Below are positions 35,925-39,135 of a stretch of DNA of 44,682 bases, piece by piece; positions within the stretch are counted from its first letter, which is position 1, and every line of letters starts with the position of its first letter. Position numbers and translations under genes: made by a program. A model generated the notes under the pieces. It saw nothing but the letters and a program-made list of their open reading frames with translations. It did not search any database and was not told the origin of the DNA. Source of the DNA: Alphaproteobacteria bacterium (GTDB lineage: Bacteria > Pseudomonadota > Alphaproteobacteria > CAAHEQ01 > UBA3637); NCBI GenBank assembly GCA_017412085.1, contig JAFPYS010000007.1, forward strand, positions 1 through 44,682. Reading direction: 5' to 3'.

Positions 35925-35945
35925 TTTAATTCCTTTCAAATGCAA

Positions 35946-35997
35946 GGGAGGATGTAGTCTTCCTCCCCGCCTTTGTTAACAAACTTTTTCAGACTAC
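35946..35997 (-). promoter_or_regulatory. Pseudoknot-capable leader of pilin-like gene 3
   Basis: In the message, arms GGGAGGA (35961-35967) and TCCTCCC (35946-35952) form a perfect 7-bp hairpin. Its 8-base loop contains AGACTAC (35954-35960), fully complementary to GTAGTCT (35991-35997) at the predicted 5' end of the transcript. This would make a pseudoknot just upstream of the ribosome site at about 35928-35934. A translational switch is plausible. Confidence 0.55.
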
Positions 35998-36003
35998 TTT
36001 TCC

Positions 36004-36032
36004 AACATACATAAACGTCCCTTTAAAGTCAA
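36004..36032 (-). promoter_or_regulatory. Promoter of pilin-like gene 3, spanning an inverted-repeat arm
   Basis: On the minus strand -35 TTGACT (36027-36032) and -10 TATGTT (36004-36009) are spaced 17 bp, with a start near 35997. The spacer and most of the -10 coincide with the left arm of the 36005-36164 inverted repeat, and five of six -35 bases lie inside the segment between the arms. Confidence 0.6.
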
Positions 36033-36164
36033 CAGGTTTTTGTTGATTTTTAAAATTTTGTCATTTTTTGTCTTATTTATTGATTATATTATATAATTTA
36101 CATTTTTTGTTGTTTTTAACTTCTCTTTTTTTGCCATGCATTTTAAAGGGACGTTTGTGTATGT
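36005..36164. repeat. 23-bp inverted repeat pair flanking 114 bp of AT-rich DNA
   Basis: The left arm 36005-36027 and right arm 36142-36164 are inverted copies matching at 22 of 23 positions (one T/C difference). The arm reads ACATACA(T/C)AAACGTCCCTTTAAA. The 114-bp interior is very AT-rich and has a hairpin TCAACA/TGTTGA (36029-36046) and a promoter-like TTGTCT..TATAAT pointing right (36068-36097). It could be an invertible switch, a miniature transposon or a duplicated operator. No flanking target-site duplication is evident and no recombinase gene is in the window. Confidence 0.75.
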
Positions 36165-36246: not shown

Positions 36247-36275
36247 TTGACAAAAGGTAAAAAATCGGTTAAAAT
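36247..36275 (+). promoter_or_regulatory. Promoter of the small RNA
   Basis: A perfect TTGACA (36247-36252) and TAAAAT (36270-36275) are 17 bp apart, with a start near 36282. Confidence 0.75.
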
Positions 36276-36281
36276 AGGCGT

Positions 36282-36420
36282 ATCCTGTATAAGCAGGACC
36301 AGATGTTTGTGTCATTTAGTCTCCCTATATCAACAGACATCTGTAGCGAGGATTGAGATTACCTCCCCCTTTTTTATTCTCAACTTCGCAGACCCCCGCC
36401 ATTCAAAGCGGGGGTTTTTT
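36282..36420 (+). ncRNA. Candidate small RNA with C-rich anti-SD loops
   Basis: About 139 nt bounded by a strong promoter and a strong terminator. It folds as hairpin TCCTG/CAGGA (36283-36298), then an 11-bp stem (36300-36310 with 36333-36343) with loop containing TCTCCC. A third stem GCGA+TTGAGA/TCTCAA+TCGC (36346-36389) has loop CCTCCCCCTTTTTT. Unpaired CUCCC-type loops are the hallmark of small RNAs that bind ribosome sites, as in alphaproteobacterial CuckooO-type RNAs. It has no open reading frame of note, and valS has its own promoter downstream, so it is a separate gene. I do not recognise its family. Confidence 0.7.
36393..36420 (+). terminator. Small-RNA terminator
   Basis: CCCCCGC (36393-36399) and GCGGGGG (36408-36414) form a perfect 7-bp GC stem with an 8-base loop, followed by six T. 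Confidence 0.95.
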
Positions 36421-36492: not shown

Positions 36493-39135
36493 ATGTTAGA
36501 AAAATCATTTTCCCCAGCAACTGCCGAAGGGGCAATTTATGCGAAATGGCAGGAAAAAGGCCTGTTTGATTGTCATCCAGAATCTGATAAACCAGCCTTT
36601 TCCATCGTAATTCCGCCACCAAACGTTACGGGGAATTTGCATATTGGTCACGCCTTAAACTACTCATTGCAAGATGCGATGTGTCGTTACAAGCGCATGA
36701 AGGGATTTGATGTTTTGTGGCAACCCGGGACGGACCACGCCGGTATTGCAACCCAGATGGTTGTGGAACGCATGTTGGCGAAAGAGGGTGTTTCTCGCCA
36801 TGATTTGGGGCGCGAAAAGTTCTTGGAAAAAGTTTGGGAATGGAAGGCTCAATCGGGTGGCCAAATTGTGAATCAGTTAAAGCATTTAGGTTGTTCTTGC
36901 GATTGGCGTCGTGAACGTTTTACAATGGATGAGGGCTTGTCTGCTGCTGTGCGCAAAGTGTTTGTGCAAATGTATAAAGATGGCTTGATTTATCGCGACA
37001 AGCGGTTGGTGAACTGGGATCCAAAGTTGCAAACCGCTATTTCTGATTTGGAAGTGGTTCAAAAAGAAACCGTGGGTAAAATGTGGTATTTCAAATATCC
37101 GTTGGAAGGGGATGCCAGCAAGTTTATTATGGTTGGTACAACACGTCCAGAAACATTGTTTGGGGATACTGCTGTGGCTGTTTCCGATCAAGATGAACGT
37201 TATAAAGATTTTGTTGGTAAAAATGTGTTGATTCCAATTATCAACAAGCCGATCCCCGTGGTAACGGATGAACACGCTGATCCAGAAAAAGGTACCGGTG
37301 CGGTGAAGATTACGCCCGCCCACGACTTTAATGACTTTGAGGTGGGTAAGCGCCACAATTTGCCGCTTGTCAATTTGCTGACAAAAGAGGCAAAATTGAA
37401 CGAAAACGTGCCTGAAAAATATCGTGGCATGAGTCCGTTGGAAGCCCGTCCAATAGTATTGGAAGATATTAAAGCTTTGGGTTTGTATGATCATGAAGAA
37501 GACAACCCAATGACAATTCCTTATGGCGATCGCTCTGATGTGATCATCGAGCCATGGTTGACCGACCAATGGTTTGTGGATACATCCAAATTGGTGGGCG
37601 CTGCTGTGGATGCTGTGAAAAAGGGTGATACAAAGTTTGTGCCAGATTCTTGGGAGAACATGTATTATTCTTGGATGGAGAACATTCAACCGTGGTGTAT
37701 TTCCAGACAACTTTGGTGGGGACACCAAGTGCCGGTTTGGTATGGGCCGGATGGCAAGATTTTCTGTGAAGAAACGGAAGAAGAAGCCAAGGCTGCTGCC
37801 GAAAAACATTATGGCACTCCAACAGAGCTGACACGTGATACAGATGTCTTGGATACATGGTTCTCATCTGGTTTGTGGGCGTTCTCAACGCTCGGTTGGC
37901 CAAATGAAAATGATGAGCACTTAAAGAAATACTATCCAACATCTGTACTGATTACGGGCTTTGATATTATTTTCTTCTGGGTGGCCAGAATGATGATGAT
38001 GTCTATGTATGCCATGAAACAAGTGCCTTTCCGCGAAATTCACCTACATGGTTTGGTGCGCGATGAAAAAGGTCAGAAAATGTCTAAATCCAAAGGGAAT
38101 GGTATCGATCCATTGGAAATGTGTGATAAATATGGTGCGGATGCTTTGCGCTTCTCGTTGCTGATTCAAGAAGGATCTGGGCGCAGTGTTATAATGAGTG
38201 AAGCTCGTGTTGAAAATTACCGTAACTTTACCACAAAGATTTGGAACGCTGTTCGTTTCTGTGAAATGAACGAATGCAAACGGGTGGAAGGCTTTGATTT
38301 GGCAACGGTCAAATTGCCAGTCAATAAATGGATTATCACGAAAGTGTCCGAAGCTGCTGATACAATCGCTAAATGGTTGGATACTTATGCCTTTAACGAA
38401 GCCAGTAATACGCTTTATCACTTTGTGTGGAACACATTCTGTGACTGGTATTTGGAAGCCATTAAGAATATTTTCTATTCTGATGACGATGCTGCCAAAG
38501 CGGAAACACGTGCTGTGGTTGCCGCTGTGGTGGATGAGATGTTAAAGCTGATTCATCCATTTATGCCATTTGTGTCCGAAGAATTATGGGATAAAACAGC
38601 GGATCGCAAAGAAATGTTGATGGAAACCGCTTGGCCGGCATTAAATGCCTATGAAGACAAAGCTGTGGCCGCCGATCAAGATTGGATTTTTGAGCTTGTG
38701 ACGACGGTTCGTTCGGTGCGTTCCAGCGTAAATATTCCAGCCGCCGCAAAGATTACTTTGAAAGTCAAGGATGCGACCGAGGCTCAACGTAAGAACATTG
38801 AAGATAATGCCGCGATTTTGAAATCTCTGGCAAAAGTGGAAGATATTCAGTTTGTATCTGAAACAGGTGCAGGTGAAGTGGCTCAGGTTGTCGATGGTAT
38901 GACGTTGTTGATTCCTCTGGCTGGTTTAATTGATGTGGCTAAGGAAAAAGAACGTGTGACCAAAGAATTGCAAAATGTCCAATCCTTTGTAGAACGCACG
39001 AAAGCCCAGTTGGCTAATGAAGCGTTTGTTTCCAAGGCGCCAGAACAAGTGGTGGCTGATAAACGCAAGGCTTTGGCCGACAGCGAGCAAGATATTGCTA
39101 AAATGCAAGAAATCTTGAAATTGCTGGGGGCATAA
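36493..39135 (+). CDS. valS: Valine--tRNA ligase
   Basis: A class I synthetase of 880 residues with editing. HIGH is in PPNVTGNLHIGHALN (about 38-52), the CP1 editing domain includes MVGTTRPETLFGDTAVAV, and KMSKS is in GQKMSKSKGNGIDP. The anticodon domain and a C-terminal coiled coil (KEKERVTKELQNVQSFVERT) complete the normal bacterial layout. The ATG follows AAAGGAG. The TIM-barrel gene starts 25 bp downstream. Confidence 0.97.
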   Translation: MLEKSFSPATAEGAIYAKWQEKGLFDCHPESDKPAFSIVIPPPNVTGNLHIGHALNYSLQDAMCRYKRMKGFDVLWQPGTDHAGIATQMVVERMLAKEGVSRHDLGREKFLEKVWEWKAQSGGQIVNQLKHLGCSCDWRRERFTMDEGLSAAVRKVFVQMYKDGLIYRDKRLVNWDPKLQTAISDLEVVQKETVGKMWYFKYPLEGDASKFIMVGTTRPETLFGDTAVAVSDQDERYKDFVGKNVLIPIINKPIPVVTDEHADPEKGTGAVKITPAHDFNDFEVGKRHNLPLVNLLTKEAKLNENVPEKYRGMSPLEARPIVLEDIKALGLYDHEEDNPMTIPYGDRSDVIIEPWLTDQWFVDTSKLVGAAVDAVKKGDTKFVPDSWENMYYSWMENIQPWCISRQLWWGHQVPVWYGPDGKIFCEETEEEAKAAAEKHYGTPTELTRDTDVLDTWFSSGLWAFSTLGWPNENDEHLKKYYPTSVLITGFDIIFFWVARMMMMSMYAMKQVPFREIHLHGLVRDEKGQKMSKSKGNGIDPLEMCDKYGADALRFSLLIQEGSGRSVIMSEARVENYRNFTTKIWNAVRFCEMNECKRVEGFDLATVKLPVNKWIITKVSEAADTIAKWLDTYAFNEASNTLYHFVWNTFCDWYLEAIKNIFYSDDDAAKAETRAVVAAVVDEMLKLIHPFMPFVSEELWDKTADRKEMLMETAWPALNAYEDKAVAADQDWIFELVTTVRSVRSSVNIPAAAKITLKVKDATEAQRKNIEDNAAILKSLAKVEDIQFVSETGAGEVAQVVDGMTLLIPLAGLIDVAKEKERVTKELQNVQSFVERTKAQLANEAFVSKAPEQVVADKRKALADSEQDIAKMQEILKLLGA

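Follow-up and report, generated by a model that had tools for sequence, protein, structure and literature searches.

The 44,682-nucleotide stretch of alphaproteobacterial DNA analysed here, hereafter the window, carries next to a type IV pilin-like gene (pilin-like gene 3) a short inverted repeat which, taking segment, enzyme and expression scheme as a whole, is probably a promoter inverton of the Mpi type that controls type IV pilin-like genes. The genome contains paired sites, several copies of the segment in orientations that differ between loci and contigs, and an invertase gene. In the mechanism that we propose from these sequences, the arms of the repeat would be the crossover sites of a serine invertase of the Mpi family, most likely the product of C10:21365-21958, and strand exchange at the paired sites would invert the 132 bp between them. 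The site would split the pilin promoter, the -35 hexamer residing on the segment and the -10 hexamer and the leader in the flank, with the site itself serving as the 17-bp spacer. The assembled state, with TTGACT facing pilin 3, would be ON, and the inverted state, in which TGCATT occupies the -35 position for pilin 3 while TTGACT points at the neighbouring gene, would be OFF. Since several pilin-like genes carry the same switch, differing pilin sets would be expressed across the cell population.

Inverted repeat and split promoter in the window

No other short-range inverted repeat of the window comes close to the one formed by the two arms (23 nt each, 22/23 complementary or 96%, with 114 nt between them), which scores 20 against 12 for the runner-up and 15 for the top score in 30 order-1 Markov copies of the full 44.7-kb window. 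Each arm harbours a 12-bp imperfect palindrome of the general pattern AAASG-NN-CSTTT (Table 1). Serine recombinases exchange strands with a 2-bp stagger, and inversion requires the same centre in opposite orientation. The GA centre of the right core is the reverse complement of the TC centre of the left core, i.e. the same centre in opposite orientation, so that strand exchange would invert the 132-bp segment. Inverted core pairs with matching centres, 100-170 bp apart, number one in the window versus none in 200 Markov copies. Such an anatomy suggests a serine-invertase crossover site resembling the Mpi-type sites of Bacteroides.

A promoter scan placed on the minus strand a TTGACT-17 nt-TATGTT promoter with 9/12 matches, in which five of the six -35 bases of pilin 3 lie within the segment and the arm provides the spacer and most of the -10. 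The promoter element present on the segment is the -35 TTGACT only, not the whole promoter, and it faces the type IV pilin-like gene. As the -10 is fixed in the flank and the -35 lies in the segment, the spacer of 17 bp is formed by the site, and the -35 is the element that inversion would exchange. When the segment is inverted in silico, TTGACT moves to the valS side, its place as -35 of pilin 3 being taken by TGCATT; the corresponding junction words on the pilin side are CCTGTTGACTTTAAAGGGACGTTTATGTATGTTGG (ON) and GCCATGCATTTTAAAGGGACGTTTATGTATGTTGG (inverted), and the window copy is seen in one orientation, that of the assembly. The preliminary description of this DNA had reported the repeat, read the left arm as spacer and -10 of the pilin 3 promoter with five -35 bases inside the segment, and anticipated the exchange of hexamers; these three observations hold, the repeat standing far above chance.

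Table 1. Features of the window at the putative switch and its surroundings
Feature	Position	Strand	Remarks
Type IV pilin-like gene 3, 137 aa	35511..35924	-	N-terminus ESGRSMVEMLGVLAIIGVLS common to paralogues, C-terminus variable
Untranslated leader of pilin-like gene 3	35925..36003	-	Common to C10 and C13 pilins; has hairpin 35946-35967
-10 hexamer TATGTT, in outer arm and fixed flank	36004..36009	-	Promoter scan
Left arm, pilin-side recombination site	36005..36027	-	Predicted from sequence
Left-arm core	36013-36024		AAACG-TC-CCTTT, 12-bp near-palindrome
Proposed invertible segment, central dinucleotide to central dinucleotide	36018..36151	.	Core spacing 132 bp
-35 hexamer TTGACT, inside segment, now facing pilin 3 (ON end)	36027..36032	-	Promoter scan
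TGCATT, hexamer in equivalent slot of the other (OFF) end	36137..36142	+
Right arm, valS-side recombination site	36142..36164	+	Predicted from sequence
Right-arm core	36145-36156		AAAGG-GA-CGTTT, 12-bp near-palindrome
Putative short transcript between switch and valS	36247..36417	+	Promoter TTGACA-17-TAAAAT (11/12), terminator-like hairpin 36390-36417
valS	36493-39135	+

With regard to the gene product, pilin-like protein 3 displays the N-terminal pattern G|RSMVE (Glu at +5), which is typical of type IV pilins and is kept in paralogues that differ elsewhere. Pfam and NCBIfam searches assigned it to no family. Its AlphaFold model, of low confidence (pLDDT 64), consists of a long N-terminal helix and a four-stranded head, and the best PDB matches of the model are Neisseria type IV pilins, which are weak and have non-significant E-values. 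The hairpin in the leader is GC-rich and is conserved in the pilin leaders of C9, C10 and C13, including that of C9, which lacks the switch. On the other side, the stretch preceding valS, in which the preliminary description had seen a small RNA, is indeed bracketed by a strong promoter match and a terminator-like hairpin, and has no Rfam family at the curated cut-off; it represents a possible small RNA or valS leader, and inversion would place the putative transcript downstream of the promoter.

Segment copies and their orientations in the genome

A genome-wide search with TTTAAASGNNCSTTT returned 17 matches versus 2 for the reversed control pattern, and nearly all of them sit at copies of the window unit or at a locus on contig C15. 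As a further site, TTTAAAGGAACG at C13:47156 was rejected as a chance match within an open coding region; the match at C18:42746 looks like coding sequence too. The preliminary description had recommended looking for more copies of the arm, and the segment is found at about six separate loci, i.e. about five beyond the window, some of them oppositely oriented. These copies are positioned on C3 (the window), on C13, at the end of C10 together with the start of C19, at the end of C1, and at the starts of C11, C16 and C9. The recurring module comprises a site, the -35, the segment, a second site and a pilin leader. Two subfamilies can be distinguished by their centre, GA in C3, C13 and C10/C19, and AA in C1, C11, C16 and C9, and the centres agree at both ends of the copy in all pairs of this genome (GA in C3, C19 and C13, AA in C1). 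The segment interior shares 98% identity with the window copy in C19 and 83% in C1, and the second site at C13 is degenerate.

Several dispersed copies of a unit with terminal inverted repeats would also suit a MITE that happens to carry a promoter, as the preliminary description had envisaged. However, on one side the homology extends beyond the repeat, across the leader and into the gene of the pilin, while on the other it ends at the repeat; no target duplication or flanking direct repeat is present at the window copy, and the copies always adjoin pilin leaders or their former neighbours. These features make a mobile element of this kind highly improbable, and we dropped that proposal.

Under the inversion hypothesis, the end of the segment that meets each gene is informative. 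The pilins of C3, C13 and C10/C19 (n=3) face the -35 (ON) end; all three single-pilin loci assembled through are ON. At C1, the interior resembles that of the window copy far more closely if read in the direction of pilin B (83%) than in that of pilin A (45%), and pilin A therefore faces the OFF end; despite this, its leader, -10 and intact frame are present. Pilin B, whose gene is followed by that of a type II/IV secretion ATPase, is joined to the ON end where C1 terminates and to the OFF end where C11 begins in the same assembly, over 123 identical nt. Likewise, the non-pilin flanks of C16 and C9 have 45 nt in common and adjoin opposite ends (OFF in C16, and ON in C9 as judged from two bases). 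Judging by eye from the sequence, we take the C16 flank gene to be groEL, and the product of the C9 flank gene presumably is polynucleotide phosphorylase.

The contigs share at most 123 nt, and therefore the words of a de Bruijn assembly would be at least 124 nt long. From the segment to the first pilin-B-specific base the distance is about 111 nt at both junctions, and both should then be covered by single assembly words, an expectation that depends on the assembler and on the post-processing. Alternatively, the C1 end could belong to a third pilin gene with the same 123 nt as B, in which case pilins A and B would face the OFF end and at least three others the ON end. The C11, C1 and C9 junctions lie at contig ends, where assembly errors concentrate. 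The window unit is absent from DNA-level relatives in the same genus, a search of genome contigs with the arm sequence and the pilin protein found no close second assembly, and a search of viral contigs gave no match.

The sites on C15 are arranged differently. At C15:122802-123503 (L084:3803-4503), three cores that match AAACG-AC/GT-CGTTT perfectly, one of them inverted relative to the other two, lie between the genes of three small secreted proteins of one family. These proteins have 'NWWSAFAWCxANGMHLA' in common, and the one searched against Pfam has no family there. The segment between the last two cores contains a promoter-like TTGACT-17-TATCAA, and the locus looks like a small shuffle among three genes.

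Mpi-family invertase and related elements in the sister genus

The preliminary description had also advised searching the genome for a tyrosine or serine recombinase. Three serine recombinases are encoded, among which the product of C10:21365-21958, with an intact frame, scores 273.5 bits against NF009949, the NCBIfam 'master DNA invertase Mpi family' (cut-off 272), and aligns with PDB entries of Gin-type DNA invertases over a stretch that takes in the N-terminal Ser motif. A second Mpi-like paralogue on C2 stays under the cut-off (233.7 bits). No site adjoins the C10 invertase gene in its own genome. We infer that this invertase acts on the sites described above, that the window copy inverts, and that its orientation sets expression. 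As for other enzyme types, a PF01548 profile search (IS110-like DEDD, Piv type) found no match in the genome, and there are three PF00589 tyrosine recombinases, one Xer-like by NCBIfam and the others of 359 and 601 aa, none having the size of FimB/FimE (roughly 200 aa) in this 86% complete genome. The Mpi family is present in 32 of the 43 genomes of the same bacterial family versus 0 of 14 control genomes. Its genes directly adjoin pilin-like genes at G001:C14, G001:C31, G005:C2, G026:C144 and G032:C239; between the invertase genes and the adjoining pilins of G001, G005, G026 and G032, no repeats were recognisable. In G005, another locus (L144:14-616, on G005:C60) has repeated TGTTTCACGTGAAACA, which look like parS sites.

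Related elements abound in the sister genus, where G028, G065 and G064 contain 161, 120 and 78 matches, respectively, to the pattern TTAAASGNNCSTTT, compared with 5, 5 and 0 for the reversed pattern; the number of distinct sites is lower, as the symmetric site is counted on both strands. Single genomes harbour dozens of such pairs, mostly beside pilin genes. The 40 loci fetched from G064 and G028 contained 36 true pairs, leaving out one adjacent pair formed by two different elements, and 24 of these pairs lay beside a pilin N-terminus. The spacing was 143-145 bp in 30/36 pairs, and the centres were complementary in all 36, five of them being non-TA. Some non-TA pairs (L287, L299, L305 and L309, from G028, G064 and G065) have no adjoining pilin N-terminus. 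Further, L296 and L298 of G064 carry an AAACG half-site at both ends around an ordinary interior, as might result from a swap of half-sites; a palindromic TA centre could permit such an exchange. The sister-genus elements are split promoters as well, with TTGCAW inside, the site as 17-bp spacer and the -10 outside, and 19 loci have a better -10 match on the pilin side than on the other, whereas no locus has a worse one there. At G028:C19 and G065:C5, divergent pilins flank one segment. Several copies have only one intact core, and unpaired cores are found beside pilins in G028. The same end of the segment is turned towards the pilin in 21/23 loci. Unrestricted inversion should produce both orientations, provided that neither state is favoured, and flipping in the sister genus would therefore be biased, selected or rare.

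This orientation bias and the constant spacing of 143-145 bp are in line with another proposal of the preliminary description, a duplicated operator, in which the palindrome would be a transcription factor site located in the promoter spacer and again about 132 bp upstream, acting by DNA looping with no inversion. The promoter spacer, where the cores sit, is also a common operator position, and the sites of the window are 132 bp apart. However, the asymmetric centres match in inverted form at every pair and co-vary between loci, neither of which operators need, and the orientation of the segment relative to the pilin varies between loci and contigs. In addition, the core resembles published Mpi-type sites, and the C15 locus has three cores, two direct and one inverted. 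We thus consider a looping operator pair unlikely, the proposal being weakened by the centres and the opposite orientations.

A further possibility is that past flipping explains the orientations of the paralogues, whereas the window copy no longer inverts and serves as an ordinary ON promoter. The arm mismatch (22/23), the degenerate second site at C13 and the unpaired cores of G028 indicate that copies can decay, and the three of three single-pilin loci assembled through in the ON state would agree with a relic. On the other hand, both window cores keep the consensus and identical centres, and an Mpi-family invertase with an intact frame is encoded, which renders the loss of activity at the window copy quite improbable. 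An active promoter inverton is the reading that we favour, and the ON/OFF switch logic first put forward for this repeat gains support from the arm copies, the Mpi-family invertase and the orientations differing among paralogous loci.

A wider reading, plausible yet held tentatively, is that one Mpi-type invertase system operates throughout the bacterial family as a genome-wide combinatorial switch of a large pilin-like repertoire, with dozens of split promoters per genome, the site as -35/-10 spacer, only the -35 swapped, and divergent pilin pairs exchanged.

Known inversion systems and biological significance

The proposed switch shares with E. coli fimS the ON/OFF promoter inversion for a pilus subunit gene, but FimB and FimE are tyrosine recombinases acting at a single locus, whereas serine-invertase sites are present here at many loci. 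As with Moraxella Piv, DNA inversion would alter type IV pilin expression; however, Piv is an enzyme of the IS110-like DEDD family, absent from the genome here, and it inverts pilin coding DNA, not a promoter. The arrangement of pilins A and B in C1, like that of the divergent pilins at G028:C19 and G065:C5, recalls Campylobacter fetus sapA, in which one promoter segment also lies between divergent homologous surface-protein genes, although the sapA inversion involves a large segment and homologous recombination, as opposed to a 130-145-bp segment with serine-invertase sites.

The closest parallels are with the Mpi systems of Bacteroides, which have in common an Mpi-family serine invertase, one invertase family with many dispersed sites, the half-site (A)AACG/CGTTTAA (the AAAGG half of the window differing by one base), a short segment (132-145 bp here versus 183-186 bp there) and surface structures as output. 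The site consensus ARACGTTCGTN is given for B. fragilis Mpi (Coyne et al. 2003, as cited in PMC8375218), and the site of the B. intestinalis CPS promoters is GTTCGTTTAA (PMC8375218). The B. intestinalis promoter lies in the segment, since its transcripts begin within the proximal repeat, whereas the site here lies between -35 and -10, so that just the -35 would be swapped. Also unlike the Bacteroides systems, the genes concerned are type IV pilin-like genes instead of capsule operons, and the host, to judge from the family-level search, does not belong to Bacteroidota. The number of invertons alone is not new, since up to 181 per genome are known in Mitsuokella multacida (PMC11892184). Our literature search found no described pilin inverton in such bacteria.

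If the proposal is true, pilin variation in an unrelated lineage would be driven by a mechanism known chiefly for varying the capsules of Bacteroides, and the promoter would be compact, with the recombination site doubling as its spacer. The proposal would also account for the many pilin-like genes kept with identical N-termini and variable C-termini. The exact junction sequences given here can be counted in existing metagenomes, with the warning that assemblies break at these sites. Taken together, the sequence data from this genome and from the sister genus suggest that these bacteria vary their surface pilins by promoter flipping.
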